Positions 24,574 to 52,024 of a stretch of 64,000 nt of DNA are shown in pieces. The notes under the pieces were generated by a model. It saw only the letters and a program-made list of their open reading frames with translations. It was not told the DNA's origin and made no database searches. The position numbers were made by a program, and so were the translations under genes. The first letter of the stretch is position 1, and every line of letters begins with the position of its first letter. This DNA comes from Diplonema papillatum (Eukaryota; Euglenozoa; Diplonemea; Diplonemida; Diplonemidae), in NCBI GenBank assembly GCA_030068145.1, contig JAPJBO010000813.1:39551-103550 (forward strand), given 5' to 3'.

Positions 24574-27500
24574 ATGACCGGGGACGAGTTGTGTTCCAAC
24601 GCGCGGCGCGGGGTCGGTGATTTCGCGTTTAGAGAAGATGAGCGAAGACTATTTGTTGGTGTTCCACCCCGGACGCTTTTGCGTCAGACCATGTACCTGA
24701 TAATACTAAATTTGAAGGTCCGCTGCCGCTACCCATTCCATTTGGCAGCTGAACTCATATGCCCTGTTCTCCTTGTCTCGATGGCATGCTTCTTATTCAC
24801 AGTAATGGAGCCCACCTCCGCTGAGCTGAATTTGTACGGGATGTACACCATGCCACCGTTGGGCTCAGCGCCTCCGAATAACAAAGTGGTACCTTCATAC
24901 CCACCTCTTCTCCCTGCGGGGACACTGTGGTTTTCGGTGGAGACATCGATAGGTACTCCGCAGTGGCAGCGTGGTGCTCAGGAGATCATTCGCGAGGTTG
25001 TCGACACCATGCTGCGAAATGAGACGTTCTATGCGAGAGGGGGTGTAGCGCGTTGGTTTGACGACCCACCCACAATGGAGAAATTCTTGTGTGAACACAA
25101 CGACTCGTACGAGCTCCCCTTTGCGGCTGTCAGCTTTTCACCTGTGTTTTCACTCCACCAGTCTTGTATCGGTCGCCGTATGAGTTTGTCAGGCTGGCAT
25201 GACTTCAAAAACTTCACCACGGGCTTCCACTACACCATACACAAAAAGGATCTTCCAGATCCCGGGAAGATGTTCGCGTCCATCAAGCCCTATGCATCCG
25301 CTCCCACCCGGCAGTACGCTGAGGGACTGCTTAGACTGCAATACTCGTTAGATACCACGCTGCGGACGATGCTGAGCAAGGAAGTTGACGTCAATCTCAC
25401 CGCTTCCAAGTGGGCTCACAGAGTGAACGAAGCGCTGCCGCTTTTTCTCAAGCGTTATCCTCCGCCGTCACAGGAAACATACGATCGGTTGGGCAACTTG
25501 ACGAGCTATTCTGCTTTGAAACGGTTGATAGCTCGTGACGAAGTTTTGCGAGGAGTAGGGAGCTCAGCCATTGCTCTTTCGTGGATAGTGACGTTCTCGC
25601 TTGTCACAACAATCACAGTGAGAGCACGTTATGTCGGGTTGTCTTCTTGTCTTATGGTTATGGGCATGTCGTCCATTGCCCAAGGAGTCGCGTTGGTCGT
25701 CTCAACGTGCTTCATCGCCCTTGTGTCCGTGGCTTGCCAAGTCGTTCTGCTCACCGCTTCAGACGCTCTCATAAATGTGAATGAAGGCGTTTTGGCACTG
25801 TACTTCCTCTGCTACGTTCTAAGTGTGGTTGGCGGAGCTCTACTTCTTGGTGTCTTCATAACAAATCCGTCGCACACAGCTCTGGTTTCTGTTCTTGTTT
25901 ATATGATCGTAGTAACATCTGGTGCCGTAATTGCAGAGTGTGACGAAAATCATTACGGGGAAGAACGCTGCGCTGTCGAAACTCGGTCTTTGGGTGCCGG
26001 CTTGCTCTCACCGATTGCTTTCATCCTCGGCTTCCAAGAAATTGTTGTCCGCATAAACGATCGTGGCAGGTCTGTCACGTGGTCCAACCTTTCGACACGG
26101 AAAGCGGCAAGTAGTTTGAACTCGGTGGACGCCGACGATTTCTCCATATCGGCGACCCTTGGAATGATGGTAGCTGATGCATTCGTCTATTTTTTTATTG
26201 CCTGGTATTTGAACAGAATCGCTTGGTCGAGGTACAGATGGTGCTTCCCTCTGGAGAAGGGGTTCTGGTTCGGCCCTGGCAGCAAGATGAAACCAGCTGT
26301 TATGCCACCAAGCGATGACTACGAGAAACCAGTGTGTGGGCCGTGCACCCGAGGTGTCATTTCTGTTCGGGGCTTGACCACTTCTGTCCCGTTGTCGAAC
26401 TGGCTGCTTTCTTTCGCTTGTTCAAGAAGGAAAACAGTCCTGGACAACATTGACATAGATCTTTATCCAGGACAAGTTCTCGCCCTCGTCGGTTCTGCAG
26501 GCAAGTCGTCATTCGTCCGCTGTCTAACAGGTCAACAGATACCGGACTCCGGCGAGGTGTACCGAGATAGTGAGCTCATCATTCCGGCATACTTCCAGCA
26601 TCAGATGAAGATTGGCTTGAGTCCCCAGAAAGACATTCTTTTTGAGTGTCTTACGGTGTATGAACATCTGTACCTCACGGCAGTTCTCAAAGGCATTCCT
26701 CGGCTTCAGCTCAAAGCTCAAGCCGACAGTATGGCTTCCGAAGTGGATTTGCTCAACAACAGAGATCGGAGAGTTTCGGATCTGACGCCGGGCCAGAAGA
26801 AGAAGTTGCAAGTTGCGATGGCGTTTATTGGGGGACCGAAGATTGTGTTCTTAGACGAGCCAACACTCGACATGGACCCCGTATCCGTGAGGCAAGTGCG
26901 GGATGTGGTGCGGAGGTTCAAGAGAAATCGAATTGTTGTCCTCGTTACAACATCCATGGAAGAGGCCGAGCTGGTCGCAGATCGCATATGTGTTTTCCAA
27001 TCTGGTAAAGCACGATGTATAGGCTCGTCAGCCTTCCTGAAAAGGCGGTTTGGTTGCGGTTACTTGGTTACTGTCAGCAAGAGGGTAGCTCTCTATGGTA
27101 CATGTTTGCCGCTGGATGAGAGATATGGTCCACTTGCACGACGTATTCGGAAGTTAACACCATCAAGCTACCTTCGCGAATGTCCCAGTGAAGTAAAAGT
27201 GCACGTGCCTCTCCAGTGCACAAGCGAGCTCATAAATTTACTGAGCGATCTGGAAGACTTCGCCTCCTTTATTCAGCCCTATGTGCGAAAATGGGACCTG
27301 CGAATGAATGGACTCGAAGACATTTACCTCCACCTTCTGGAGGAGGCTGACGAGCAATGGGCATGTTTGCAAGGTCATGTTCTGACAGAAGCACCCAGTT
27401 TCTTTGTGGGAAGTGACCGGACTTGTGATGGAGTCCGCGAAAACTCTTGTCCTCATGCGAGTTCCTTGTTCTGTAGCGACTGCAAGATCAAACTTTGCAC

Positions 27501-30500
27501 AGAGTGTGCAAGGTCTCTGTGCATGAGTACACGTACACGCTTCCCGAAAACGAATCAGTCAAATATCATTCTCATGTCGCCGGCAACTGGGATACAAACT
27601 CTGACCTCTTCGCTCACTCCTCGCCTCGATTCACAACCTGCCCGGTTCAACAGCTTTTGGCTTGATTCCAATTTACATGAGTACTTGTCCAATGCACACT
27701 GCAGCCCTTTTGACAGGAGTCCGTCTCTTGAGAATTCTGTGATGTGGAACAGAGTTTCCCATTCAGTGACGTCACCACCGCTACCACCAATTCCGAACCC
27801 TCCTCCGGTGTGTATTTACAATGTCACAAAATTGTTACAATGTACAGACAAAGTGGATGCTTTAAACCTATTTTGCGTCGGGTGTACCTTTGGGTGCCTT
27901 GATGACCACTCCAGTCTAATATCAACTCTCTCAGTTTGGCGCATTGGATTGAGCAGCAGCATTGCCACATATCTGCCAGTTAGGCTGGATTTCGATATTT
28001 CGTTAGCACTTGGCACTGGTTGTAACGGTGCGCGTGTAGACTTTTTATTAGTGGTGCGTTTGATTTTAGCTTATGTACCATGGCAGTCTACCTGGCGGTT
28101 ACTGGCTGTTACTGGCAGTTGCTGGCAGCGCAGAGCAAGGGTGTACGTGATTTAAACACTGGGTGTACTTACATGTTTTCTCCAGGTTCGAGTTTAGCCC
28201 CTGCTACTCGAAAAACAGGCACACATTTCGCTGAACGTACCATCTGTCTTGCACTCATCCTCATCCACCAGTCCAGTCTTCGTCACCATCTTGACGAACT
28301 TCTCGACTACCTCTTTCAGAGTTGGAATGGTTTGGGGAAGTTCCGCCTCCTCGGGGCAACCTTCCAGACCGTCGTGTACCCGCTTTTCGTGGATCCTTAC
28401 GGCGTTGTGAAGTGGGCGTTGGACCATCCGACAAGCTGTAGAAAAGGCGGGAGTGTGATGTATTCCGCAATTCTTGTTGCACAATGGAACAAGGAAAGTT
28501 TATAAAGGTACCCAAGACGAAGCAGCAAGCGGTAGCACTGCCAGGTGTATCTTCCCAAGGAAAAGCTCCCACAGCGTTTAAAAGACGGGCGGTTCGCGGA
28601 GGCGTGTCCTTGAGCAAGGTGTGGTGGAAAAAGGAGCTCGCAAGCTGGTTGAAGCTTCTGCGCGTGTGGCCAGCGCAAAAGGAGGGAGCGACCGTTCCAG
28701 TCCGCACCTCACCCCACAGCCTCCTTCTCTGCTAGCAAAAGACCCTTGGGATAGGAGCCATTGGGACAATCCCATGGTACCGCGTGAATGGCGCGATCGG
28801 GCCCACGGCAGCGCAGGCCAGCTGCAACGTGGTCGCGCACAGCCTGTCTGCTCGCGGTCGATCCGGCCCGGCCCGCAACCGCAGCCACCATGGCGGCCAC
28901 ATTCGCCCGTGCCCACACGCCGGCCAGCTCATCCCATCGAGCTAGCAATCCAGCTGAGGAGACAACTGAGGATCCGGTAGCGTCAGCCGGCCAAGGAACC
29001 GAGCGAGGTGCGTCTCGTAGAACAGCGCATTAAACTTGAGTTTAGTCGCAAACCGGAGCGGCGCCTACGGCTCCGAAGGCAACCGCACCGAAGGAGAATT
29101 AAATGGAGGTTCAGTAGCGATGTGCACAGAAAGTACTGCACAGAGCTCTGGATGTCCGGCGGTGCGAACAGGTCATGCCAACGGCCTACTTGTTTGCGCC
29201 GTCTTCGTCAACAAGTCGCGCAGAAGAAAGCAAGCGACGGGGAACAAGGGCAAATACATCCAAAACGCTCTGGACATCTGCGGTACAGCGAAGAAGGAGT
29301 TAGTTCCGTTGCCAGCAAAACAAGAAATGCATGACTGGACACTAAACTGACGTGAAATGTGAAACGGAGTGGACTCGGGTTCGTCAACGGCAGCTACTTC
29401 TTCGTCTTCCCCACTTCGCAGCTTCGGTCGCGAAGCATGGAATCTCCGCCAATCGTTCTTCTGAAGGCGCTCCATTGTTGATTTTGCCCCCTGCACACGA
29501 CACTGCTGCAGCAGTCGAATCGGAGCGGAACCAGGTTTTCTCGTTTCCTCTTTCTACCAGCCACCTGGTCTGCTTCCTCCTGCTTTGACTTGTTCCACAA
29601 CAGTCTTTCTAGACGCACTTTTCGTTCTCCAACTCGAACATGGCAATCAGATTCGCACGTTTGTATTGGTAGCAGACCTTCATCTTCCCGCAAATCCCTT
29701 CGAAAACAGATGCCAGAGATTTCTCGTCACACTTCCTACCTCCTCATCGGGTGGACAGTACTGCACAGGCTCGTAGTAACACCCGGCGGCAACCGGATGG
29801 ACGACGCTCCGGAGACAGTCAACATCTGACGCTGTGGAGATGTCGGGTATTAGATCCTTTGAACGCATCACCCTTAGCGAAGCGTGCGGAGGGGGGGGCG
29901 ATTCGCAGTTCACCTGTTACAGGAAAGGTTTGACATTTGAGTCAAAAAATAAACGCAAAAATGTCCAGAAACTGGGTTTGACACCTTCAGAAAAACTTGA
30001 AAGTATCATGTGGTGGTGTTTGAATGAGTTACTGGCAGCGCAGACCTGTCAAACGCACCAATGGGGGGCGAGTTGTTCGCCAGTGTAGCACCCACTCTGT
30101 GAACTGGGTTGAAATTCTAAAATTTGGTTCTCTAGCGAGCTATCCCGCTTTTCTGGGGGCACATTTCTGTATCGTTTTGTAGGGTTACTTTTTGACCAGC
30201 GGAATTGAGCGAGTTTTTCCCGCGCGGCAGGACTTATAACCCCCTAAAAAAACCTACCCAGTTACTGTTATAATCAGGCCTTCAAACACGCTACAGATGC
30301 CTTCTTTGCTTGCATCTCAAATGGTAGGGTTCGGTGTCTCAGCAATAAATGCTCCAGATGAAATGGAGTCTCCTGGTCGCGCATCAAAGATAGACCATAT
30401 TGAAATTAAGGTATGGAGTTTTCATGGGCCATAAGCTGTTCAGTTCGTGAATTGTGAACTCGAAGAAGTTCGTCTAACACTGCTGCTGTCTCGGCTGGTT

Positions 30501-33500
30501 TTGTTTGCCACATGCACAGCAAGGCAGGTGAAGCGAGTGCTGTTCAGTAGCACCACGTCGCCAGCCGAATTTTTACTACGTACTGAGGACTCCGAAAAAA
30601 GTTGGAGCGGACAAAAGAGGGTTATACCGCGAGAGCCCGAAAATGGGTGAGTTGGACCATTTTCTCTGGTCCCCGTCTCGGAACAGGACTCAAACTGTGA
30701 CCCAGGTGGTGACTTGAGATATGCCTGTGTAAAGACTCTCAGCTGTTGCACGGGGCCGAAAACCCCGTGCAGCTACCACCGCAAGATGAAAACAGAAGTC
30801 TTGAGCCGAGTGCTGGATGGGGAAGCTGACAGCCTGCTGCGAAGGATAGAGGAGAGAGGACCCAAAAGCAGCGTCGGAAACTCAAAGTCAATGCCGACTG
30901 GTGAAAGTGACAAGTGGGCTGGACTTCGATTCAGCAGTTACCCGCTTAAAGCCTGAACTTAAACACACACACACACCCACAGCTTGTCCACAGTGACGCT
31001 GATGACACTTCCGCGCTGCGGGATGAGTTCACTCTTCCTGTTGGAACACCTCGTACACCAAGCAGCGAAGACGGACTTGCTTTGCCTGAGGCATCAGCAT
31101 CTCTTCTCACACATGAAAGCGAGAACGACCTCTTCACAGCTGACTCAGATGTAGATGAAGGTACTGAGGGTGATATGTCACCCTTGACAGCTCCAGTTGC
31201 TCATGTTGTTGAAACACAACACTACGGAGAAACAACACGACCGGTAACTCCAACTGCACCTTGTGATTCTGGAGAAAAAGCAGTTGATACTGCCCAGCTA
31301 CCAACACCCATGAGCTCTCGTCGTGGGAAGAAGTTACCTCCACCGCTGGAAGCCCCTCGTGAGCGTGCAAGCGATACCGAATCAGATAGCAGCTGGGAAA
31401 AGATTCTATCTCCAGCAGCCATTGCCCGCAAAGCCCCAGTGCTTCCGGAGGTCATTTTCGCGCAAGCACCGCCCACAGGGGCGTCATTCTGGACGCAGCT
31501 GAAGGTGCTGACCACGCTCAAACGATACACGATGGTCCGCAACAACAGTAGGGCCGCCCTCTTGCATTACACGGTGTCCTTGTGGTTTGTTGCCGCCGGC
31601 ATCCTGAGCTTGAAGTTTACTGACACATCCTTTGCTCGGCCTGCCTTGACCCTTGGTCCTCAGTTCATTGCACCTCCGCATAACAAACGAGTGAACATTA
31701 TGACTCAGGGGCCGTGCGCTTTTCAAGGTTCGTTGCAACCTTGTGCAGATTGCGATGACTCTGTATACACCTGGTTTTTCGACGTCAGCAACTCGACTGA
31801 TTATTCAACACTTCTGACTCCAGGAAATGCACCTTTCGACTCTGGAGTTGCGGTTCAGTGCAATACGACGCATACAGTTCTGTGGTACAATGCTAGCAGC
31901 CTCCACGTTCTGCCAGCAGCAGTCAACATGTTCGTCAATTTGCTGTTGTCGGATTTCTCCCCCAGCAATTTAAAGTTCAACAACTCTGTCAATCAATCCG
32001 TATCGCTCGCAAGTCTGTTCGCAGAAGATACTTTTCAAGTACACACAAGCATCCACACCATGCCTGATGGAGCAACAACAGATAGTGCAATGCCACTACT
32101 TGGATTTGGTCTCCTGGCAAGTGCAGGCATGGCGTTTTTATCCGGAAGTTTTGCTGTGCCAATAGTGACGGAGTACTCGTCTGGTGCCCGTTTACTACAG
32201 CAAACAGCTGGTGTATCCACAGCTGTCTATTGGGTTGCTCATTACGTTTGCGACTGCATCGTTACTGTCGTCCTTTCGTTCAGTATCAGCGCACTCTTCT
32301 TCATCATCGACCCGATGTTCCGAAGTCCCGATGAGCTGGTCGCTCTTGTGCTCATAACGTTCACTTATCTGCAGGCTTCCGTTTTCATAGCCTATCGGGC
32401 AGCCCATTTCTTCACAACTGCTTGGGGGGCGCAGGCCGGAATTTCGAGTGCTTTGCTTCTGATAATGGCCATACCGCTCATACTGTCGGTGTCTGTATCG
32501 TCAACTGGAGCCACCTTCGTGCGCAGCTTTTCGACATTGACGGTCTTCGTCTTTTCACCACTGTATTCACTGATCAACGCTTGGCTTGCCCTGTCTGGAT
32601 ACCTTTCGGAAGACGATTCGCAGTCTGCGTTCGCAGCAATTCACCAGCCCATGATCGGATTACTGATTCAGATAGGCGGTGGTTTGGTCTTGCTGAGCCT
32701 GCTTGAGCTACACAACCCGTTCATGAAGTACATCAAGCAGCGCTTCCCGCGTCCATCTGGCTTTTATGCAACTGCTGACGATCCGGACAATCAATTTGGA
32801 GAGGAAATTGAGTTGGAAAGGAAAGACATTGAAATGGCTCGGTCATCGGGGAGGATTCCAGCTGTCGGCATTGTCACCCACCAGCTACGGAAAACTTACA
32901 GGTATCGATCTGGTCGGGTAACAGCTGTACAATGCTTGGACCTCAAGATTCAACCAGGCGAGGTTTTTGCGCTACTGGGGCCCACAGGTGCAGGGAAGAC
33001 GACTACAGTAAAGATGCTCGTTGGCGCCCTCTCTCCAACACAAGGCAACGCCTACCTTCATGGCCGATGCATCTTGAGCGAAATGGGTGAGATTCGGAAG
33101 ACGCTTGGTGTTTGTTTGCAGAAGAATGCTCTTTTGCCAGAACTGACTGTTTCTCAACATATTTACCTGCTTGCAACACTGCGTGGCATCAATGTCGAAA
33201 CGGTCAAAAGCTTGGCAGACGCGTTAATGAACGAACTTGACCTTTATCGGTGGAGATCATCTCTTGTGCGCGATCTTAGTTCATCAGTCTCGCGGCGACT
33301 CTCCCTGCTCTTGGCATTTGTCGGCCGGCCATCGTTCTTGATTCTGGATGAGCCCACATCCGGTATGGACCTCATTGGCCGCAAAATGTCGCAGCAATTT
33401 ATGCTAAATTGGATGAAGCAGGTGCGCAAGTCTGCAGGCTCTAAACTTGGTGGGGGAGCTGCAGCTTCATCTCAAATTTGTGCGGTGTCTGACAAACCCA

Positions 33501-36500
33501 TTGTTCTATTAACATCCCATTCGATCCACGAGGCTCAAATGCTGAGTACAAGGCTTGGAATTCTCGTGGCTGGAAAGCTCCGATGTCTTGGAAGACTGCA
33601 GGACCTCAATGCAAAATTTGGAAAGGGCTGGATTCTGTCAGTGCGGACGACTGATGACTTGAACTCGCATGCGTTCATGAGGTTCCTTCAGGAGGTTGCC
33701 CCAAATGCAAAGATAACAGCAGAAAAGTATGGGTCGATGGTTTATCAGCTTCCCGGCAATGTCAAGAGCTCTTCGATCTTCCGCCATCTTGAAAAACACA
33801 AGAAGAAGTACAACATCGTGGACTATTCGCTCAGTCAAGTTTCGTTGGAAGGCGTATTCATGAAGACTGTTGTTGCAGCTCCGCCAAAAAAGCCATCGAT
33901 TATACCGAAGCTCAAAATAGTCATGCTTTGTGTCGGTTCTCGTGGAGACGTACAACCTTTTCTTGCTCTTGCCTTGGCCTTGGCTGACAAGGGCCACACT
34001 GTCAGGCTTGCGACTCACAAAAAGTTTGAAGATCTTGTAAGTGGTGAGGTTCATGACAGACTTTCTAAGAACTGTTCAGGTACTGTGGAGTTCTTTCCTT
34101 TGAGCGGCGAACCAGACGCTTTGATGACTTTCATGGTCGAGAATCCTGATCTTGTCACGATAAATACAGACAAAATTCGAGCCAATCAAGAAATGATGTA
34201 TTCCATTTTCAACTCTTGTTGGGCCGCTTGCACAACTCCTGCCAACTACGTTCCCGATGTACTTATTGCAAATCCACCCGTGCAATGCCATGTTCATATT
34301 GCGGAGCGTCTGCAAATTCACCTTCAAGTTCACTTCACCATGCCGTGGTCCCCAACTGACATGTATCCGCATCCCTTTGCTGCTACCGACAAGTTCGGCA
34401 ATGAAGAGAGTTACAACCTTGTCGAAAAGATGATTTGGCTTGGTCTCGGGTATGTCTTTTCTTTCTTCGGTTTGAATCTGGGGGTCATGGGGGGGCCTTC
34501 ACGAGGTGACACTGTTGACCGCGCCTTTATTGAGCTGCTCCCCCAACCGCCAGCATCATGTACTTGACGCGAAGCGGAACGAAGCACCGTCCGGCCAATA
34601 GAGGGCCACAAAAGTGGCAAATCGACCGGTCTGGTGCTTAGCAGCCAATGGCCTGTGATGGCTGAGTGCACACCTAAGCAGTGTGTGTTGTGTCTTAGGG
34701 CCTGGTCAACCACCTCATCAGGCACAAACCTTTCGCGACCGTGATTGGACAGTCGTGATGCCGGGGGCGGTCTTCATGGACAAGATAAAGCAAGACCTGC
34801 CCTGCGCCTGCTGTCTCTGGCTGCTTCGGTAGACGACACATACCTACTACTCGAATCACGTCTGGATGCTGCGGAGGCAAAGCAGAAACAAGCAATGCCT
34901 TGACCGGATGTTGGCCGCCAGGCCTATTTTGGGGCATACCAGTATGAGAAAAAGTTGTGCCGAAGGGAAACCTCCTGGGATGGCTCTCGTTGTCGCGGCG
35001 CCGCTGAACGTCTTCGACTCTTGACAGCTTCGGAGCAAGCGGGTTCTTGGAGTACAGGAGAGATGAGAAACAGCGGGTCGCAAGACACCGGTATTGTTGC
35101 ACAGAAGGCCGAACACAGTGTCCCAGTGAGAATACCCTGTCTGACTCGTCTAAACTCGTCAATATTCGAGTTTAGATAGACGAGTTTGACACGAAAATAC
35201 GAGTTGTTTGCTCTCAGAAAACCTGTGGCCCCCAGTGGGGTTGCTGTTCGGACCCGGGCATTAATTCACCCTGTGTTGCTGCTCATCCAACGAGCTTCAG
35301 TTTCAATCTTCAATGTCACAGGCCGAAGGTGAATGAATTTCGAGTGAACACGCTCAAGCTTCCTCCCATGCATCGTGGGGCTGGATTGGCATCGCGCATG
35401 CACGTGCCTCACATTTATTGCATTTCTGAATCTGTTTTGCAACGCCCATCGGACTGGGGCCCTCACATCAGCATGGCAGGTGTTTGGACCTTGAAGCAAA
35501 GAACGGTATGTTGTTTACTACTTTTTTAACTTTTAGCCCTTTCTTGAACATCCTGGTGTTTTTCTCGGGCTACTACTACTACTAGGTGATGGCCGATGCA
35601 CCCCCGGGCTGGAGTGGGGAGTCTGTTCGCTCTACTATTTGCGTGATGCTTTGGCTGATGCTTTTTTTGCAGCTACGATACAATCGCCTCAGCGTCCTAG
35701 TCTGTGTGTGAGCTGCACAAAAGTGCATGAGCAAACCACTCCTGGGCGAACCGAGGAAAAGCGGCAGGCCGGCAATACAAGAGAAAGTACAAGAGAAAGG
35801 GGCCGCATGGGCGGCACACAGGAAGGTGGGAAGGGGGACGGGAGGGAAACGGCCTGGATGTTTGCCTCCCTGTCCAACCTCGTAGAGGGTAGAAACGCGT
35901 ACATCAACGTGGTGCAAACGGAATTGGGATTCCAGTAGTCGCGCTTTCGGCGTTCAAGCAAGCTTGCTGTGTTGCAGACCCGTTACGTGGTGCCTGAGTG
36001 ACAGTGGTTTTCCGCTTAGCCAACAAAATGAAATCGGTTGGCTAAAAAATTTCGTGGTTCACAAAAAGAGGTCAATTTTTTTCTCTCGACCGATCTTTTT
36101 GCATGGTGTTAAGAGGGTCGGCAGGTTGTGGCCTCCGGCTTAGATGGAATTCCTGTCCACACAGGAAAAACACTGGGTGATCCCTTGTGTGAGAGGCGTC
36201 CACGCTTCCTTCAGTTTCAGGTCTCTGCGGATGCTCTCGCGGTTGCGAGTGCTACACTGTGCGGCACTTTGCGATCCCTTCGTTGTCGGCTTCACAAGTG
36301 CCGCAGCCCTCAGTCTGTGTGCTGAGCAGCATGTCCTGAGGCCGCGGATGCAATCTCCTTCACGATGGAGCCGTTTGTACATTTCGCCTGTGTACTCTAA
36401 CCATCCAAACACACAACAGCTGTATCAGCCACCATCGGCAGTAGTTTCGTTCTTACAAAATCGGCGACCAATCTACATCGGCTTCGGGTCGATAGTTGTG

Positions 36501-37048
36501 ACTGACACTGACACGATCACGAAAGTCATCTCGAAGTTTGTTTTAAAGCTGCTCGATATGTGCCCGGACGCCTCGATAATCCTTCAACGGTGCGAAGGGA
36601 AATCTGAGTGGAAGGGACTGATGCACGATCGGCTACTTTTCTGGACAGAAGCTGTCGATCACACATGGCTTTTCCCACGATGCAGCCTTATTATTCATCA
36701 CGGAGGTGCAGGAACAGTCACAACAAGCATCGCTTCTTCCCGTCCTATGGTATGCCTCTGTGTGATCCACGCCAGTATTGGTATTCAGTAAGAACTGACT
36801 CTTGGCATAGAGTATTCTGGTACACCAAGCTGTGCTGTGTCTTGCAGACCGCACCCAGTGCAATAGTCGCTCTGAACTAACACTACGTGTCACCGAACCA
36901 CCAGAACCATTCAAACACACAGATCATCATACCTTTCTTTGGCGATCAGCCCTTTTGGGGGAAAATTGTTGAAAACATGGGACTCGGTGTGTGTATTCAG
37001 AAAGACCTTTCTGTGCAGACCTTGCTGCACGCCGTGGGCGTTTGTCAG
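24574..37048 (+). CDS. ABCA-type full transporter fused to UGT80-like sterol glucosyltransferase (3' incomplete)
   Basis: Proposed exons: 24574-27807, 30983-34449, 35322-35505, 36420-36749, 36923-37048; at least 2447 aa. The order is TMD1 (first helix at ~55-75, extracellular loop, helix bundle from ~325), NBD1 (P-loop ~640, FLDEPT ~758), a Cys-rich B-box-like linker (~959), an acidic linker, TMD2 (from ~1245), NBD2 (GPTGAGKTTT ~1744, FLILDEPTSGMD ~1864), then from ~2053 a glucosyltransferase. The latter has CVGSRGDVQPF, LIANPP, HFTMPWSP, YIGFGSIVV, WLFPRCSLIIHHGGAG and IPFFGDQPFWG, hallmarks of sterol 3-beta-glucosyltransferases. NBD2 and the glucosyltransferase start share one uninterrupted exon, so the fusion is direct. 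ABCA proteins move lipids and UGT80 enzymes glucosylate sterols, so coupled glycolipid synthesis and flipping is my inference. The 3.2-kb first intron is inferred from matching phase. About 40-60 C-terminal residues were not found. Confidence 0.85.
28776..28976 (+). repeat. Dispersed repeat in ABCA intron 1, inverted copy at 40.5 kb
   Basis: Begins GGTACCGCGTGAATGGCGCG, passes CAGCCTGTCTGCTCGCGGTC and ends GAGGATCCG. It matches the reverse complement of 40513-40673, which lies inside the terminal-inverted-repeat element. This suggests that a relative or fragment of that element sits in this intron. Confidence 0.8.
30258..30280 (+). repeat. Short dispersed motif, three copies
   Basis: CCAGTTACTGT followed by an A-rich triplet and ATCAGGCC occurs here, at 59534-59557 and at 61228-61250. 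Two of the three copies continue into CTTCAAA. The other two lie next to the large 33-bp satellite blocks, so this could be a boundary piece of a dispersed element. Confidence 0.6.
34509..34850 (+). repeat. Intronic dispersed element, copy 1
   Basis: Starts GACACTGTTGACC. Shares with 49496-49888 the blocks CCCCCAACCGCCA, GTACTTGACGCG, AATAGAGGGCCAC, GGCCTGGTCAACCACCTCA, GACAGTCG and CTTCGG-AGACGACACATA. It lies in the third intron-exon interval of the ABCA-glucosyltransferase gene, about 60 bp after the donor at 34450. It is in sense orientation, as is copy 2 in the rhomboid gene. Confidence 0.85.
35149..35176. other. Intronic 10-bp hairpin
   Basis: TCTAAACTCG and CGAGTTTAGA form a perfect stem with an 8-nt loop inside the intron 34450-35321; more ACGAGTTT-type sequence follows. 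No function is assigned. Confidence 0.5.
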
Positions 37049-37080
37049 GTGTGTTTTTAATGTAGGGCTTTTTGTCTTAA

Positions 37081-38072
37081 AGGGGGTAGACCTATTATCC
37101 ACCCGATTTTTTCCGGAACATTAAAACTAGTGGCATTTAAAAATTGCTATTATCCAGGCTTTATCCAATGGTTATCCAAGAGCTATCCAAGGGCTATCCA
37201 GAGTGTTGTTGCAGGGTGGTGTTTTTTTCCTTCGCACTTTCGGCGCGATATTGACTATTGTTTGGTAAAACCAACCTTTCCGGTCGAAACCCAGCTCACA
37301 TTCCCTGTTAGTGGGTGACCAAGCCAACGCTTAGACAATTCTGCTTGCCTAGGTTAGGAAGAGTCAACATCGAAGGATCGAAAAGCAACATTGCTATGAA
37401 CGCTTGGCTGCCACAAGTCCCCTTCCCTGTGGTAATATTTCTGTCGGCTTCATCCCTTGAACATAACTGAGGGATTTCGATATCACAAGGCACTCCCACG
37501 ATTCCCGTTCTTTTGCCGCCTGGCCGACGTTTATCCCCTGCACTGGATGCGGTAGAAGTCAAGAAGTGCCCCAGAACAACCCACAGGTTGACATACCAGC
37601 CGTAACTGCACCAATTGCACCTGCACCGGGTCCGACCAATTCTGAGTGCACTGAGACAACAGAAAATAGTCCACACCAGCCACGAGGACGGCGCTTCAGC
37701 CGTCCTCTTCATAGTGCCAGCAAAGCAAATCGCACCCAGAGAGAGTGTGCCGGCTCACAAAACACCACCAAATCGCGGCCATTGAGAAACTATTGATCAG
37801 CCTCTTTTTCTAGCGCTATATTTGTGGATTTTTCGTTTTAACAGCTCTTTTTTCTCGTTTTCACTCTCTCGCTTTTGCTTGTTGGCAACATTTACATTCA
37901 AGACTGTTTCCACACGTCTTCTCACTTGTGTGCTGTTGTTACACTCACAGCGGGTGGAGAGGCCCACTTCCATAAAACATTAACTCGCCGCTGAAAAATT
38001 AAAAAGTTAAATCTCCAAAACCAGTCGACTTATTATCCTAGTATAATAGGTCCCCCTGGAGGTCTACCCCCT
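37081..38072. mobile_element. 992-bp segment with short terminal inverted repeats
   Basis: Begins AGGGGGTAGACCTATTAT and ends with the inverted complement AGGTCTACCCCCT, preceded by ATAATAGG. That is a perfect 13-bp inverted repeat plus an 8-bp block displaced by nine bases on the right. TTAA precedes the left end (37078-37081) but is not repeated on the right. The inside is AT-rich with one 76-codon Pro/Thr/Ser-rich ORF (37566-37796) of no known family. It starts only 33 bp after the last recognised glucosyltransferase exon. I infer a non-autonomous DNA element. Confidence 0.4.
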
Positions 38073-38128
38073 GCTAGCTTTTTATTTAGCTTATTATAAT
38101 ATATTACATAGTTGGCAAGCAAAGACGA

Positions 38129-38195
38129 CTTTGCTTAAATTTTCTTAGGAGATTTGCTTCAGATTACGAGCAAATAAATGCAAATTTAAGCAAAG
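38129..38195. other. 14-bp perfect inverted repeat
   Basis: CTTTGCTTAAATTT at 38129-38142 and AAATTTAAGCAAAG at 38182-38195, with a 39-nt AT-rich spacer. It lies just right of the 992-bp inverted-repeat segment and could be a MITE remnant or cruciform-forming site. Confidence 0.6.
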
Positions 38196-38788
38196 AAGAC
38201 ATCATGCACTAGGGATTTTGACAACTGAGGAAGTATGCAACGAAGGCAGGAAAAGGCGAACCTGCGGAAACGGAGCCGGGACTGCGTTGTACGATAGCCG
38301 TGCAGGGCGACAAGAATGGTGCCGTTGAAGAAAAGTCTCGCAAGGCTCAACCATTCGTACCGTGTTCCCGGAACAGAAGGAGAAGGACGATCGAAACCCC
38401 CAACATGACACCAGAAAAGCTGAAGAACGACTCGATGTGATCAAGGTTCTGACTCTCGCAGACCTTGTGTCTATGAGGGCAGGGGGCGTTAGACATGAAC
38501 AAGGGCACTCGTTCCTCTACTGTCCGGTGGGTCATGTTCAAAGAACACGGGGCAGTAGTTGCATGTCAACAAGGTGGGAACATGGCCGGTCTCAACAAGA
38601 GGCCACACCGAACCAGCAGACGTTCGAAGTCGATGTGCACCTACCAAGAGCAGACGGCAAGTAAGGCCGGTGACAAGGTGCGAGCCGTGCCGCAGCGGCA
38701 GGGCTTCGCAAAGCTGCGACACTGAGCGGCAGGTTTCATTCGTAGGCCCGGTGGAAGCAAGGACAGTGGCCGAGCTTATGCATGTAAA

Positions 38789-38806
38789 CTCGGTCAGCTG
38801 ACCGAG
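38789..38806. other. 18-bp perfect palindrome
   Basis: CTCGGTCAGCTGACCGAG, followed within 40 bp by ACTCGGTCCGGCC and a poly(A) run of about 17. Similar CTCGGYC/GACCGAG words recur around 43305-43360 beyond the inverted-repeat element, so these words may mark an older insertion boundary. Confidence 0.6.
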
Positions 38807-39182
38807 CTTGCACTTTAAACCAGAAAAAACTCGGTCCGGCCAAAAAAAAAAAAAAAACTATGATTTTGAATTTTTGGGGAGGTTTTTTTGGGTGGGAGCT
38901 GGAGGGCGACCCTCTCAGCCCTGTTGGGTCTGGCTGACAACTTTAGCTCCTTTTCAAATTCACAAATTTATTTGAATCCTTCATGGCCTTCCACACAACA
39001 ACTGCTCAACCGTACTTGATGGAGCCTGACAGGGACAGGTGTCCCAGGATTCCCTTTCCTCGATTGCTGACCATTACATGTCAGTCGGACCAGGCATCAC
39101 AGACAAATATACCTGTCCAGATTTTGAAGCGCCCGCCAAAGTGGATCCAAGCACACAAAACTTCCATCATATCTGAGTGTGA

Positions 39183-39515
39183 AAGCGTTGTGCCGAGATT
39201 CGTCAGTTGGGTCTCTCGGATCTCAACACTGTGATTCAGCGCTTCACAACAGGGAACCTGTCCGTGAAGTACCCGGCAACCTGCAAACTTCTCCAGCTTG
39301 CCTCCATCCTTCCTCTGGGATCCGCATCAGTGGAGCGCTTGTTTTCCAAACTTCGGTTGGTGTCGACAAGGTTGCGCAAGCTGGCTGCTGACAATCTGGC
39401 AACTGTTCTTTTCGTTGGCGTGGAGTGTAAAATGGGGGCACGAGGCATTGACGAAGAGACACTGGCAAAATACATTGCAAAATTCTGTGCAAACCCAAGG
39501 AGGCTGCACTCCTGA
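39183..39515 (+). pseudogene. hAT-family transposase C-terminal remnant
   Basis: An open frame with no usable ATG encodes a segment typical of the hAT dimerisation domain: KYPATCKLLQLASILPLGSA, ASVERLFSKLRLVSTRLR and NLATVLFVGV. In hAT transposases this domain (consensus with S-A-x-x-E-R-x-F-S) lies at the C-terminus. The frame closes at TGA 39513-39515, which is also the first three bases of the terminal inverted repeat of the next element. The catalytic part is missing upstream, so this is a remnant. It might have supplied transposase, or may just be older debris. Confidence 0.75.
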
Positions 39516-40929
39516 GCCAATTCACCTACCCCCCCTGAAAGCGACTTGAGCTCGATTACACTCGATTACGCGTCGATTACACTCGATTACACTCGATTAC
39601 GATCGATTACAATCGATCAGCTTTTGGTGAATTGGGGGGGTACTGTAACAATTGATTAAACACACAGCACTCAGCCAATCCTGATTAGCTGATGCAACGT
39701 GTCTATTATCGAGCCTTCTTCTGGGGCTAAAGATGCTGATAGCACGATCATCGAATATCGAACAAAAAGAAGCATATTCGTCTGAAAAAAGGATGTAGCC
39801 AGGCAGTGCAGCAGGGGACGAGGAAGTTCGGACTGACTTGTGGAAGCAGGTTGTCGAGTGCATAGGGGCTCGGGTACCCGTTTTCCCGTATTAGCAACCT
39901 TTGCAATTTAGCGCAGCTAATACTCGAGCCTTTTGGCATTCCCTGCGGGGCAGTTCCAGGCGATAGGGCAAGCGCTTGGCAGACACCCTGTCCTCGAAGA
40001 TGTCAAGTTTCTGTTTGTGGGTTCGATCTCCCTGGCGACAACAAGGCGGTTGAAAACGGAGGCTAATCTCACCTTTAGGCACTGCAATGTCACGCATGCC
40101 ATTGTCAGACGCTACCGTCTGGCATTGCGCAATTCGTGCCATAGTCGTTGGGGGTATTGACAAGGGGGTTCAGTGGACACTCATCTGTTGGCTCCTCGTT
40201 ACTGCCCACGTAGGTTCCGGGAGGTCTGCTTGGCTGCACGCGGCTTGTGGTGTTGCTTCGTTCTTGAACTTTTTCTTCGGCTTCATGCGGTTCATCGTCC
40301 CGGCCTGCCCCTGGTACACGACTCGTCTCGTCTCCGTAGCTCGTCTATCCTGCTTCACTTCGTGCTTCCATCGAGCCTACTTGCGCTGTCACATTCCGAT
40401 GGGTAGTGCGTCTGCGGGAGGAACCTGCCGTTATTGTGGCTGACACACCCTGTCCCTGCGGCCTTCATCGCTGTCTGCTCTCGTGCGGCCACTGTGGGGC
40501 ATGATTCCGCCTCGGATCCTCGGTTGTGCTCCTTAGCTGGATCGCTAGCTCGATAAGAAGAGCTGGTGTGTGGGCACAAGCGAATGTGGTTGCGGTTGCG
40601 GGCCGGCCGGCGTGACTGCGAGCAGACAGGCTGCATGCGCGTGGGCCCAATCGCGCCATTCACGCGGTACTCCAAAGGCCTAATCGGGCCGGGCCGGCAC
40701 ATACAGATTGCGACCGGGGCCAGCGTCGCACCTCGGTCTCGTCCCTTACAGCCGGAGCACGTGGCTCTCCCCAAGCCTCTGGGAAGGTGGCGGAGCTGGG
40801 AAGACGCGAGAGAAAACCAAAGTAGCGGCGGCCGACCTCTGTCTGCAAGCACGTCTCTGGCAGGGCAGTCGGCACCAAACGGAGCACAGTACCTCTTCCA
40901 AAGCAGTCGGCTGAAGCGGAGCACAGTCA

Positions 40930-42588
40930 ATGGGCATTCAGAGAGTGCAAAGCATGTCTCTTGTAGGGCAGTGGGCAGCGGGCTTTGAGGGAAAGGTCAG
41001 CGCGGTAGCGATGACCAGGAGAACACATACAGATGGGTGGGGAGAGGCCCTGGGACTAAGGCGTGACTACCCCCGTCCCTGTCCCTCCCAGGGCGCCACC
41101 CCGAATCTAGCCTGGCTCCACCACGGTGAAGGCCCACACCTGCGGTTTCCGTCCCTCGTATGCTTGTGCTTGGCACTTCTTGGGCCAGACAGTGGTCAAC
41201 ATGGTCGCTCATGGGTCAGCCAGGGGTCCACCAGTGGTCGAACCCAAAATACTAGTGTCAATTTCGATCACACTCTACAACGCTCGACTACACTCTACTA
41301 CACTCTACTACACTCGATTACACATTGGCTGGATGGGATGTGCTGGTCGGTAGCGGGTGACGTTTCGACAGCGGAGCTCGCCATCGACTTTGAAGTGTAC
41401 ACCGGGCTCGATCTGCCGGGCAGTGTCGTAGCAACGACGGACGGGACACCGTTGAGCATGCGCGCGAGGGTACTCGCGAGGCTTTTGAAAACCGTTGGGG
41501 ATGCGCTGGAGCGAAACGGCGACGAACCGCCTCTGCCGGGAAGGAAACTGGGGACGGTAGGGTCGCTGAGAACGGTGGGAGCCCCGCCGTGCCTCACGGG
41601 GTACGAGATGAGGCCAATCTTCCGTGGTGGTACGGAGACGATGGAAGTGCTCGAGACGCAGCTGACGACGGCTCGGCACGAATTCAACGGCGAGGCGTGG
41701 GGGATGGATCTTTTCCCGACGTACGGAGGTGGAAGGGCGGAGCGTGCGGCGAGATGGGCGGTGTTCAACGACGCTACGGAGAAGAAGAAAGGCAGGAAGT
41801 CGGCAGTCGTCGGAGGGGATCCGTGGTACGTGCCGGAAGGGGTTCCCCAACACGAAAAGTGGGGTGAGCGGGTGTGCCACGAGCACCAAAAGGTGAAGTG
41901 CGACGTCTGCAAGCGCCGGGGCAAGTCGGTGGCGTGGTGCTGTAAGGCCCACCACAAGGAAGACGACGGCCTTGCGGTGAAGTTCTGCGCGCAGCACCGC
42001 CTGACGCAATGCGCGACGTGCAAGACGATCGCAGAGTGCTGCCGCAACGGACACCACCGGTGCCTTGATCATGGCATGCCGACGTGTGCGCACTGCAGCC
42101 GGCTCGCGGATTTGCGGAGTCGAAGGCCCAAACTGTGCTGTCGGAAGGGGCACCACCGGGCGACCGTGGCGAGAGGAGAAGAAGCAGCATCGAAGAAGAG
42201 GAAGGCGGAGCTGGAGGGCGCCGCGCCAGCGCCGAGACAGGCGAAGCGTGAGAACGTGGTGTTCATTCTGCAGGAAGCAGCAGAAGGCAAGCGAGAGCCC
42301 GCAACATCAACACCGACGTCAGCAGCGAAGGTCGGGAAGACGGCGCCAACGCCAGCGAAGAAGCGGCGATCAGACTCCGCGGCGGAGCCGGTACCGAAAA
42401 GACGCAAAGGACGCGTCGATGCGCCACGACCATCGCCCAGGCGCCGAGAAAAAGCAGAAATCGACGCGCAACCGATGAACCTCGACGAGCAATCGAAGAA
42501 GAAGCGAAGCACCAAACGCGCGCCTGAGCGCGACGATCAAGACGAGCTAAAGAGGCGAAAGCATGACACTTCACGTGCGAAGAGATAA
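40930..42588 (+). CDS. Novel triple Cys/His-module protein, basic and probably nuclear
   Basis: 552 codons from ATG 40930; an in-frame ATG at 41338 (MCWSVAGD) gives 416 aa and avoids translating the CTACACTCTA array, so it is the better start. From about 41870 three consecutive modules follow C-x2-H-x4-C-x2-C-x(5-13)-C-C-x(2-3)-H-H. They are CHEH..CDVC..CCKAHH, CAQH..CATC..CCRNGHH and CLDH..CAHC..CCRKGHH, each with up to eight zinc ligands. The last ~140 residues are Lys/Arg-rich with several nuclear-localisation-like clusters (KKRKAE, PKRRKGR, KKKRS). I know no family with this pattern. A frameshifted relative at 10896-11620 and the surrounding inverted repeats mark it as mobile-element cargo; DNA or chromatin binding is inference. 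Confidence 0.75.
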   Translation: MGIQRVQSMSLVGQWAAGFEGKVSAVAMTRRTHTDGWGEALGLRRDYPRPCPSQGATPNLAWLHHGEGPHLRFPSLVCLCLALLGPDSGQHGRSWVSQGSTSGRTQNTSVNFDHTLQRSTTLYYTLLHSITHWLDGMCWSVAGDVSTAELAIDFEVYTGLDLPGSVVATTDGTPLSMRARVLARLLKTVGDALERNGDEPPLPGRKLGTVGSLRTVGAPPCLTGYEMRPIFRGGTETMEVLETQLTTARHEFNGEAWGMDLFPTYGGGRAERAARWAVFNDATEKKKGRKSAVVGGDPWYVPEGVPQHEKWGERVCHEHQKVKCDVCKRRGKSVAWCCKAHHKEDDGLAVKFCAQHRLTQCATCKTIAECCRNGHHRCLDHGMPTCAHCSRLADLRSRRPKLCCRKGHHRATVARGEEAASKKRKAELEGAAPAPRQAKRENVVFILQEAAEGKREPATSTPTSAAKVGKTAPTPAKKRRSDSAAEPVPKRRKGRVDAPRPSPRRREKAEIDAQPMNLDEQSKKKRSTKRAPERDDQDELKRRKHDTSRAKR

Positions 42589-42939
42589 CCGCGCAGTCGG
42601 CGATGCAGATTATCGCCACAGATTCTTTGCATTCTAATCCAAACGATTACACTCTACTACACTCGATTACACTATATTACACTGCGGTACCGAAAAGACG
42701 CAAAGGACGCGTCGATGCGCCACGACCATCGCCCAGGCGCCGAGAAAAAGCAGAAGTCGACGCGCAACCGATGAACCTCGACGAGCAATCGAAGAAGAAG
42801 CGAAACACCAAACGCGCGCCTGAGCGCGACGATCAAGACGAGCTAAAGAGGCGAAAGCATGACACTTCACGTGCGAAGAGATAACCGCGCAGTCGGCGAT
42901 GCAGATTATCGCCACAGATTCTTTGCATTCTAATCCAAA
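42391..42939 (+). repeat. 253-bp duplication of the ORF 3' end
   Basis: 42391-42643 and 42687-42939 are nearly identical (constant offset 296). Both carry the last ~66 codons of the Cys/His-module ORF plus its downstream flank, separated by an ACTCGATTACACT array. The array is probably where the duplication or recombination took place. The second copy has no start of its own that I trust. Confidence 0.92.
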
Positions 42940-42986
42940 ATATTACACTCGATTACGCTCGATCAAGGGGTGGGTGAATTGGCTCA

Positions 42987-44312
42987 ACTACGCGTCGCTG
43001 GAGGAAAAATTGGCTTGTCGCAATGCTGTGCAGCACTGGAGATCTCTTTAAAAGACCCCTGACCGAGATTTTTTCAACCTCTTTTTCGGATCTGGCCAGC
43101 CTAGTTCAACACCGGCAGGCAGAACCGGCGCTCCGAAGCCACACTTCCGCATGAAGCACTGTGGCAGGGCGTCTTGCGGTCTGAGACGGGTTGATGCACA
43201 CCGTAAACAGAGCAGCGTGTGCAGCTGGGGTTCGCAGGCTACTGCCAGCTGCTGTGGGAAGCGTTGCTGGTAACGTTGCTTGCTAATTTTAGACTACCAC
43301 TGCTGACCGACTTTGACCGAGTTTGGCCAAAACCTCGCCAGGTCAAGCTCGGCCCCTGAGCAAGGAGTCAGGCAAGAGAGAAGAACCGCAGAATGAGCGC
43401 AGACGCTGGGCAATGCTGTTGAAGAAAGAGTTAAACACCGGCAGCCAAACAGACCTTCAGGCAGGGAACAGCTACGGTGGTGAAGTAACGAACCTCATCC
43501 GAGTGTCGGGTGAAACCCCTTGCTTGTGTGTTCACTGGAAACGCGACCACCAAGTTTCTAGATTCTTTGGCGGGGTCCAGGTTTTCTGATGCCCTTCGTT
43601 CCCCTCATATTCGTGCTGCGGATCAAATACCCCTTGATTCCCCTTTCTGCAGTCGTTTTGCATTCGGAAGACCAGCGGAAGGAAAAAAACTGCAACTTAC
43701 CACGGGCAACCAAGGATCTGTGTATCTCCCAACTTGGGGGGCCCAAGAGATATTTTTCCCGCCAGAACCTCCCAGAGAAAAAGTGCCCCAAAAATTTTTT
43801 TTCCGCTGTGCAGGGCCAAAATCCCCCCCCTCAGTAAAAACGCCCAATTTTTTTTTTGGTAAGCGGCTATAAGCTAATTATCCCTTTAATGTAACTAGCG
43901 ACTGGTCACATTGGTCTGGCGACCACGCGACAGGAGCATTTCCAACACCGAACAACCTGACAGAGTCCGCAAGTGCTGCAGACAGCTGAAGAAATTGGGC
44001 GAAGACTGGGCGAAGAGGACGGTATTGCCGAGGTATGCTAGATAGTAGTAGTAAGGCGACCGGAAGTTTCACGGAGATTGTCTGTGCACTTTAACTCGTC
44101 GCTCAGAGCAGCTCTTGCATATGAATATATTGCGATATTCACACTGTATACTCTGCCCTGGTGCGTTTCGGGTCACCAACAGCACAGGCAGGTAAGGTTA
44201 GTATGGATTTACCATCACAGTAGCTCAAACTGGGAAATTGCAATACAGTTCATAATATATGTGCTGACGCTGCGGGAATTTTGAGAGCGACCACTGAAGC
44301 TGCCTTGATCAA
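42987..44312. other. Gene-free stretch right of the element
   Basis: Short ORFs only. Homopolymer runs (T, C and A tracts) occur at 43785-43860. Nothing recognisable as a gene; it may contain upstream exons of the DysF gene that I could not define. Confidence 0.4.
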
Positions 44313-44954
44313 GTGTTGCAACAGGAGAGAAGGTACCTACAAACCTACAATACACAGGGAATTGATGCGTTTTACTCGTACCTACCCCTTGTTGATGTTG
44401 ACGAAGAAACGTGTGCATGGGAAGAGTCGTCTTACGAAAACCAGAGATACTACCCGTTCCTTGGGTGGACAGACACCCTATTGCCAGGGGATCCTCCCTG
44501 CTGGAGTGATGTTTCAGGCCACCTGAGAATAGAGCGGTATAATTTCAGGCTACCACAGGGGTGGACATGGGATGGCGATTGGAAAGTCGACTCTTCTGCT
44601 TGGCTATCAGAAGATCAAGGATTTCAGTATGCCGCTTCATGGTGCAGTAGGTTTCACAAACGACAACGTGTTTCCGACTTTGTAAGGCGAAGGAAGTGGA
44701 TCCGACACCGTGTTGTACGTCGAATTGAGCCCGAAGTCGACCAAGTTGAAAAGTTAAAAAATGAAGTTGCAACACTTCATCAGCTGCTTTCACAGAAAGA
44801 GTCACTGATCGAGACGCTCTGCGAGGAAGGCAGGTCGTCATCATCTTTCAACGATTCCTCCAAAAATCAGTACTCAGTGAGCTACAAGTCGGAAATTAGT
44901 GCTGTGCAAGCAAATCGAGCGATGCTCACAAAGTCCAGGCTGAAGACAAGGTGA
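44313..44954 (+). CDS. Dysferlin-domain (DysF) protein, ends uncertain
   Basis: The open frame 44313-44954 begins at a non-ATG codon, so an upstream exon is likely. It contains the paired DysF motifs: YENQRYYPFLGW...LLPGDPPCWSDVSG (DysF-N) and LPQGWTWDGDWKVD...GFQYAASW...FVRRRKWIRHRV (DysF-C). This is the pattern of Pex30/Pex31-type peroxins, TECPR1 and ferlins. A coiled coil follows (VEKLKNEVATLHQLLSQKES). There is no membrane segment in this part. In yeast such proteins act at ER-peroxisome or ER-lipid-droplet contacts; that role here is inference. The frame closes next to AAG|GTGACT, and another open frame (44951-45193) follows, so a 3' exon is possible. Confidence 0.75.
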   Translation: MLQQERRYLQTYNTQGIDAFYSYLPLVDVDEETCAWEESSYENQRYYPFLGWTDTLLPGDPPCWSDVSGHLRIERYNFRLPQGWTWDGDWKVDSSAWLSEDQGFQYAASWCSRFHKRQRVSDFVRRRKWIRHRVVRRIEPEVDQVEKLKNEVATLHQLLSQKESLIETLCEEGRSSSSFNDSSKNQYSVSYKSEISAVQANRAMLTKSRLKTR

Positions 44955-50540: not shown

Positions 50541-50771
50541 GTCAGGCGTTGTTAGTTGCTGCCTGAGGCGGCCGACTCCTTCGCAAACCCGAACAGGTCA
50601 TATTATTACGAGACTCTTTCACTTGACACCACTAGATTCGGGGGACAAAAAACACCGGCCTGCTTTCTCTGACCTTGCTTCGTGTTGTTTTGACAACACG
50701 ACCTACAAGAACCTTAACCGTTAGCTGCCACCGCATTTTGAGGTTTCCCCATCGTTGAGAAGGTGTGTAAC
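50541..50771. other. Short spacer between rhomboid gene and minisatellite
   Basis: Nothing recognised; probably the rhomboid 3' UTR. Confidence 0.3.
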
Positions 50772-52006
50772 TGACCTTTGGAAGCCTTGATGTTGACCAA
50801 CTTTTCTGCAGGGACTGCCCTTTGGAAGTGACCTTTGGAAGCCTTGATGTGGCCCAAGTTTTTTGGAGGGACTGACCTTTGGAAGCCTTCAAGTTTTCTG
50901 GAGGGACTGACCTTTGGAAGCCTTCATGTGCCCCAAGTTTTCTGGAGGGACTGCCCTTTCGAAGCCTTGATGTGCCCCAAGTTTTCTGGAGGGACTGCCC
51001 TTTCGAAGCATTGTGGTCCAAGTTTTTTGGAGGGACTGACCTTTGGAAGCCTTGATGTGGCCCAAGTTTTCTGGAGGGACTGACCTTTCGAAGCCTTGAT
51101 GTGCCCCAAGTTTTCTGGAGGGACTGCCCTTTCGAAGCCTTGATGTGCCCCAAGTTTTCTGGAGGGACTGCCCTTTCGAAGCATTGTGGCCCAAGTTTTT
51201 TGGAGGGACTGACCTTTGGAAGCCTTGATGTGGCCCAAGTTTTCTGGAGGGACTCCCCTTTCGAAGCGTTGATGTGCCCCAAGTTTTCTGGAGGGACTGC
51301 CCTTTGGAAGCCTTCATGTGGCCCAACTTTTCTGGAGGGACTGCTCTTTCGAAGTCTTGATGTGCCCCAAGTTTTCGGGAGGGACTGCCCTTTCGAAGCC
51401 TTGATGCACCCCAAGTTTTCTGGAGGGACTGCCCTTTCGAAGCACTGTGGCCCAAGTTTTTTGGAGGGACTAACCTTTGGAAGCCTTGATGTGGCCCAAG
51501 TTTTCTGGAGGGACTGCCCTTTCGAAGCCTTGATGTGCCCCAAGTTTTCTGGAGGGACTGCCCTTTGGAAGCCTTCATGTGGCCCAAGTTTTCTGGAGGG
51601 ACTGACCTTTAGAAGCCTTGATGTGCCCCAAGTTTTCGGAGGGACTGCCCTTTCGAAGCGTTGATGTGCCCCAAGTTTTCTGGAGGGACTGCCCTTTGGA
51701 AGCCTTCATGTGGCCCAACTTTTCTGGAGGGACTGCTCTTTCGAAGTCTTGATGTGCCCCAAGTTTTCGGGAGGGACTGCCCTTTCGAAGCCTTGATGCA
51801 CCCCAAGTTTTCTGGAGGGACTGCCCTTTCGAAGCATTGTGGCCCAAGTTTTTTGGAGGGACTAACCTTTGGAAGCCTTGATGTGGCCCAAGTTTTCTGG
51901 AGGGACTGCCCTTTGGAAGCCTTCATGTGGCCCAAGTTTTTTGGAGGGACTGCCCTTTGGAAGCCTTCATGTGGCCCAAGTTTTCTGGAGGGACTGACCT
52001 TGAGGC
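50772..52006. repeat. 44-bp minisatellite, about 28 copies
   Basis: The unit contains CCCCAAGTTTTCTGGAGGG, then ACTGCCCTTTCGAAGCC, then TTGATGTG. Variants differ at a few sites (TTTCGAAG/TTTGGAAG, TTCATG/TTGATG). Because 44 is not a multiple of three, all six frames stay open over hundreds of bases, producing apparent proteins of up to 303 aa with 44-residue periodicity. I do not regard these as genes. Confidence 0.97.
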
Positions 52007-52024
52007 CCGCACCCCCCGGAGCGG

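Follow-up and report, generated by a model that had tools for sequence, protein, structure and literature searches.

An ABCA-type transporter gene of Diplonema papillatum that continues in frame into a predicted sterol glucosyltransferase and a DysF domain

ABCA1, ABCA3, ABCA4 and ABCA7 are full transporters in which two units, each of a transmembrane domain (TMD) and a nucleotide-binding domain (NBD), follow one another in a single chain, with an extracytoplasmic loop after the first transmembrane (TM) segment of each half, and ABCA proteins usually finish with the regulatory domain R1, which comes after NBD2. Another member of the family, ABCA12, is linked to glucosylceramide, and in the ABCA12 and ABCC10 systems, which resemble the present case in that a single pathway combines an ABC transporter with a glucosylated lipid, the glucosyltransferase (GT) is a separate protein. 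To our knowledge, it is not settled by what route steryl glucosides arrive in the non-cytosolic leaflet. ABCC10 is described as an ABC transporter linked to glucosylceramide (PMC9862172), and the GRAM and PH domains of fungal sterol GTs are described as serving membrane association and lipid binding (PMC9698648). The latter text, which reviews fungal sterylglucosides, nowhere uses transporter, translocat or leaflet, and in a second review transporter and flippase appear only in the reference list, the sole textual "export" being drug efflux (PMC7151148). Here we describe a stretch of 64,000 nucleotides of Diplonema papillatum (the window; positions 39551–103550 of contig C813, up to the contig end), in which a plus-strand gene of seven exons at window positions 24574–44954, modeled from open reading frames, splice sites and codon score, is predicted to encode an ABCA full transporter, a GT of the UGT51/UGT80 type and a DysF domain in one polypeptide. 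The assembly searched comprises 271 Mb in 2910 contigs.

The transporter and the GT meet inside a single 3.5-kb exon, exon 2 of the model (Table 1), where an open frame of 1205 codons (30950–34567) spans the join with no stop and no need of an intron. A Pfam search of 30983–34564 matched ABC2_membrane_3 (2.8e-12), ABC_tran (1.1e-24), R1_ABCA1 (1.7e-10) and Glyco_transf_28 (1.8e-16). An 801-base probe across the join had one match in the assembly, the window contains no N bases, and the codon score in frame is −0.024 before the join and +0.020 after it, where the shifted frames score −0.28 and −0.39. The predicted spliced frame is 8007 bases long and encodes 2668 residues with a single stop at its end; domain order, the open frame over the join, a complete and colinear GT domain and the DysF domain are all read directly in this predicted frame. 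The N-domain family of the GT, PF03033, has one match in the genome, which is the fused gene. In the genome search for ABCA paralogues, 43 matches were found and 30 loci obtained, two of them within the window (L012 and L028), and nine of the other 28 loci were read. In all five paralogues with a readable R1 end (L013, L014, L034, L038 and L039) the frame stops 11–60 residues after the motif SL(E/D)QVF, whereas the fused gene continues for 631 residues past that point; because the paralogue stops were read unspliced and could be intronic, this control leans on the single PF03033 match.

The initial annotation had proposed an ABCA transporter joined in frame, within one exon, to a sterol GT. 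The full-length transporter, the UGT51-like enzyme and the fusion itself are all supported by the predicted sequence, and the domain search that it recommended on the translated exon 30983–34449 recovered TMD2, NBD2, R1 and Glyco_transf_28. It recognized neither the DysF domain nor exons 6 and 7, and that the ATP sites degenerate on one side only went unremarked; its end of the gene at 37048 is rejected, since the alignment with UGT51 carries on through both of these exons. Its further suggestion, that one polypeptide could glucosylate a sterol or related lipid and flip the product, agrees with the predicted topology and is taken up below as a proposal.

The transporter half of the protein resembles ABCA proteins throughout. 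From 24574, the first half matched ABC_tran (2.6e-21) and, just under the gathering score, ABC2_membrane_3 (6.8e-07; 29.1 bits vs. 31.6), and its best solved relatives are ABCA1, ABCA7, ABCA4 and ABCA3 (1e-97 to 3e-83); those of the second half are ABCA3, ABCA1, ABCA4 and ABCA7. Two TMD–NBD units of the ABC2_membrane_3/ABC_tran type are thereby placed in one chain, with TMD1 aligning with ABCA1 and an R1 domain after NBD2. By hydropathy, each half consists of one TM segment, a loop and a TM block, the loops measuring 255 and 157 residues by the hydropathy limits chosen here. Ten of 15 N-glycosylation sequons, in a count that leaves out the two TM segments themselves, fall in these two predicted extracytoplasmic loops, which make up 412 of the 2668 residues, and a glycosylated loop is accordingly predicted after the first TM segment of each half, as in ABCA proteins. 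Because the sequons concentrate in the two loops, the NBDs, the GT and the DysF domain are predicted to be cytosolic, where UDP-glucose is. The protein differs from ABCA1, ABCA3, ABCA4 and ABCA7 in that an enzyme and a DysF domain come after R1, in that one composite ATP site is degenerate, and in its short loops. A B-box zinc finger considered for the linker stayed below the cut-off (15.2 vs. 24.1 bits), and no claim is made for it.

In an ABC dimer, the Walker A motif of NBD1 faces the signature motif of NBD2, and the main losses therefore fall in one composite ATP site: aligned with ABCA1, the Walker A of NBD1 (LVGSAGKSS) comes out two residues short, and the NBD2 signature is degenerate. 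The NBD1 H-loop, TTSMEEAE, is without His, and Walker B (FLDEP) is retained. In the other composite site the NBD1 signature, LTPGQ, also falls short of a full LSGGQ. The protein thus has fewer than two complete composite ATP sites, although we do not take possession of both as defining an ABCA protein, and by its motifs it looks like an ABCA transporter with a single hydrolytic site. Unlike the fused gene, all eight readable paralogue NBDs carry LSGG together with a Walker A of canonical form (the NBD2 of L013, L014, L015, L038 and L039 and the NBD1 of L019, L022 and L027); three pairs among these eight are halves of one gene, and L034 covers a C-terminal end only.

On the exon-joined protein, the GT matched PF03033 (5.4e-17), PF06722 (3.4e-08) and PF00201 (6.6e-06), giving an N-domain followed by a UDPGT-like C-domain. 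With exons 2–5 joined (30983–34449, 35322–35505, 36420–36749 and 36923–37048), the final 405 residues give an end-to-end alignment with the characterized sterol GT UGT51 of yeast (structures 5xvm, 1.5e-58, and 5gl5, 1.7e-58), with identity at 134 of 381 aligned positions (35%); GtfB, second among the solved relatives, matches far more weakly (2e-14). The motifs HHGGAGT and FFGDQPFWG are present. The C-terminal residues of the UGT51 domain that are still lacking at 37048 are encoded, by alignment, in exon 6 and the start of exon 7, and the predicted catalytic domain is complete and colinear with UGT51; colinearity and the donor-site motifs are the features shared with the UGT51/UGT80 sterol 3-beta-glucosyltransferases. 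No Pfam match to GRAM or PH domains was found in exons 1, 2 or 7 or in the joined GT; these domains are not known to be required in sterol GTs outside fungi. Where the fungal enzymes are described with GRAM and PH at the N terminus (PMC9698648), the Diplonema protein has an ABCA transporter in that place and a DysF domain after the enzyme. A PF00201 search found one further GT1-like gene in the genome, stand-alone on contig C225; such exon-wise searches miss split domains, and this one overlooked the C-domain of the fused gene itself. Sterol reductases are represented in the genome by three PF01222 matches, which lie on two contigs and of which the best reaches 8.8e-129. As an observation on the organism, strong sterol reductases together with no match to the cyclase domain PF13243, in an exon-wise search that makes the negative weak, perhaps describe one that modifies sterols without making them.

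The DysF domain in exon 7 (44433–44705) matched PF06398 at 1.5e-10 (41.1 bits, cut-off 26.8), and its solved relatives are TECPR1 (8.7e-13), dysferlin (2.1e-07) and myoferlin (2.5e-06); in sequence it resembles the DysF domains of these proteins and of Pex24-type peroxins. The Trp/Arg stacking ladder typical of DysF is present, with seven of the eight TECPR1 ladder residues retained (W116, W118, W122, R159, R161, R165 and R167) and W138 replaced by F. TECPR1 is reported to bind sphingomyelin with the tip of its N-terminal DysF domain, and alanine at W77, L88, L89, I142, K152, K153 or W154 abolished its recruitment (PMC10476172). At the corresponding positions the Diplonema protein has Y, L, P, A, Q, R and V, with one of the seven identical (L88), which sets this domain apart from that of TECPR1. 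We call it a DysF domain by sequence and make no claim to sphingomyelin sensing. The coiled-coil-like tail of exon 7 gave only a subthreshold KIF21A match in the Pfam search, and an NCBIfam search left exon 7 without a match and added nothing but ABC families, many bacterial ones among them, in exons 1 and 2. DysF is widely used in this genome, with nine matches above the cut-off; it also occurs in other large frames (L003, L004 and L006), of which L003 is Vps13-like by reading.

We give about half of our confidence to a protein in which a sterol or another hydroxylated lipid is glucosylated on the cytosolic side and then exported by the same polypeptide. With the GT and DysF domains fused to the cytosolic C terminus of an ABCA full transporter, the enzyme would transfer glucose from cytosolic UDP-glucose to a sterol or another hydroxylated lipid in the cytosolic leaflet of the membrane. 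The transporter would then receive the product and carry it to the exoplasmic or lumenal leaflet, with one of its two composite sites hydrolyzing ATP. The DysF domain may keep the enzyme end attached to the membrane or read membrane lipids, as GRAM and PH do in fungi, and transporter and DysF together may substitute for those domains. Glucosylation coupled to flipping would fit the topology, itself a prediction, that places the GT in the cytosol; substrate, hand-over and transport are inferred. The fuller proposal, a three-in-one machine in which a sterol GT and a membrane-reading DysF domain sit on a single-site ABCA protein and one polypeptide both makes and moves the steryl glucoside, is a tentative one that we hold to be possible but doubtful. 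Some observations weigh against synthesis and export by one protein. Intron 5, at 6.9 kb, is a place where an error in the gene model could lie. Transport might also be weakened, given the missing ATP-site motifs. A sphingomyelin-binding DysF of the TECPR1 type was considered and is not supported, with one of seven recruitment residues identical and W77 and W154 replaced by Y and V. Finally, the squalene/oxidosqualene cyclase C-domain PF13243 had no match in the genome in an exon-by-exon search, in which absence is weak evidence; the sterol may be taken up, a cyclase missed by the search may make it, or the acceptor may not be a sterol.

Among the alternatives, the one that survives best, although we consider it unlikely, is that the fused protein is real and its ABCA part serves mainly as a membrane anchor or lipid sensor governing the GT, the glucosylated product not being cargo. 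The degenerate composite site, set against the canonical motifs of the eight paralogue NBDs, speaks for such a role. Both TMDs and R1 are nevertheless retained in long open frames, as are Walker A, Walker B and the H-loop of NBD2 in the other composite site, and ABC transporters with a single hydrolytic site still transport in several families. Also in favor of an anchor, fungal sterol GTs are described as needing membrane-binding domains (PMC9698648), which the ABCA part could replace. Less probable still is a protein that glucosylates and transports a non-sterol such as ceramide or an exogenous hydroxylated compound, as the broad acceptor range of the GT1 family, the missing PF13243 match and the matches to GtfB and other bacterial glycopeptide GTs would allow; those matches are far weaker, UGT51 outranks all other solved relatives by a wide margin, and sterol reductases are present in the genome. 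Two transcripts, an ABCA messenger RNA (mRNA) and a separate GT–DysF mRNA arising from an internal promoter or alternative processing, with the joined frame rarely translated, might be favored by the in-frame Met codons near the join (FMK just upstream, IVM at the start of the GT), but the join lies inside one exon and no in-frame stop follows R1, so that an ABCA-only mRNA would need processing of its own, and we regard this arrangement as distinctly improbable. An assembly chimera, a read-through or a decaying gene, for which a draft assembly, transposon-like content in intron 5 and the single copy might be cited, is scarcely credible, and an assembly error at the join, which the initial annotation had named as fatal to its proposal, is judged unlikely, given a single-copy join, no N bases, even codon use over the join, model exons with no stop except in the last, and a splice consensus common to all model introns.

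The modules of the glucosylating ABCA protein proposed here are each known; the same architecture may exist unremarked in related protists. Among the matches listed, we found no description in the literature of the order ABCA–R1–sterol GT–DysF, nor of DysF on a glycolipid enzyme or a one-site-degenerate ABCA protein with the same architecture. The join query 33620–34449 had no pattern match in a viral contig collection and 16 pattern matches in a prokaryotic collection, none of which encodes a relative; neither collection is a good source of eukaryotic genes, and these negatives carry little weight. Gene fusions often mark proteins acting in one pathway, and for that reason the fused gene points to ABCA transporters as candidates for steryl-glucoside transport. 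Synthesis and membrane transfer of a sterol glucoside may, to judge from the predicted protein, be the work of one protein; if true, an ABCA protein would be named as a steryl-glucoside translocase, and one construct would allow synthesis and translocation of steryl glucoside to be studied together.

Table 1. Features of the predicted fusion gene, in window coordinates
Feature	Position	Strand	Basis
Exon 1: TM1, first extracytoplasmic loop, TMD1, NBD1, start of linker; 1078 aa	24574..27807	+	Open frame, Pfam, ABCA matches, donor phase 0, codon score
NBD1 (ABC_tran): Walker A LVGSAGKSS at 26485, signature LTPGQ at 26779, Walker B FLDEP, H-loop at 26941	26440..26865	+	
Exon 2: linker, TM7, second extracytoplasmic loop, TMD2, NBD2, R1, N-terminal part of GT	30983..34449	+	Open frame, Pfam, solved-structure matches
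NBD2 (ABC_tran): Walker A GPTGAGKTT, Walker B LILDEP and H-loop TSHS retained; signature LSSSVS degenerate	32936..33361	+	
R1_ABCA1 regulatory domain (PF23321)	33620..33838	+	Pfam 1.7e-10, 41.2 bits, cut-off 27
Join: 26 residues between R1 and GT28 matches, in frame, inside one exon	33839..33916	+	Open frame, Pfam
Glyco_transf_28 N-domain (PF03033)	33917..34369	+	Pfam
Exon 3: GT	35322..35505	+	UGT51 alignment, splice sites, codon score
Exon 4: YIGFGS and HHGGAGT motifs	36420..36749	+	UGT51 alignment, splice sites, codon score
Exon 5: PFFGDQPFWG motif	36923..37048	+	UGT51 alignment, splice sites, codon score
Intron 5: 6.9 kb, transposon-like content	37049..43963	+	
Exon 6: 23 aa, near-terminal GT helix	43964..44032	+	UGT51 alignment, splice sites
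Exon 7: end of GT, DysF (44433–44705), coiled-coil-like tail, stop TGA at 44954	44358..44954	+	PF06398, TECPR1 match, UGT51 alignment running in

All six introns of the model have acceptors of the form [ACG]ACAG, and the donors of introns 2–6 read GTATG[TC] in four cases and GTGTGT in one. The 3′ end of exon 1 is the least certain of the exon boundaries. It most likely lies at 27807, where the best donor of intron 1 (GTGTGT at 27808) is in phase 0 and fits the acceptor at 30983; an end near 27373 was dropped in favor of this position. The codon score is intermediate over 27373–27807 (−0.129) and intron-like over 27808–28152 (−0.311). In the GT exons and exon 7 the in-frame score ranges from −0.07 to +0.08, above the shifted frames, and five intron stretches score −0.16 to −0.46 over their three frames. 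For the short exon 6, the score of +0.076 in frame against +0.040 in one shifted frame means that composition alone lends no support. Upstream of the gene are an aldo/keto reductase and a sulfatase (both by Pfam), the frame of the latter ending at 24002; a DHHC palmitoyltransferase frame starts downstream at 45280, and a clathrin-heavy-chain-like gene, read from frames only, is also a neighbor.

Within intron 5, a long frame rich in Cys/His and Arg/Lys (40915–42588) is flanked by tracts of the type CGATTACACT, and its 3′ part recurs nearly unchanged just downstream, at about 42690–42885; 41299–42585 had no Pfam match. Elsewhere in the same intron, 39183–39509 gave a weak match to the hAT dimerization domain (20.5 bits vs. 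a cut-off of 21.4). Outside the gene, 50632–52127 is a head-to-tail repeat array with SKGQSLQKTWGTSRLRK-like units on the minus strand, the plus strand being open too. In the genome at large, copies of the ribosomal DNA are dispersed: 3′ ends of 18S were located over many contigs, at L045–L048 and 36 more places (40 scored of 189 candidates), and the copy at L047 has a divergent small-subunit sequence.

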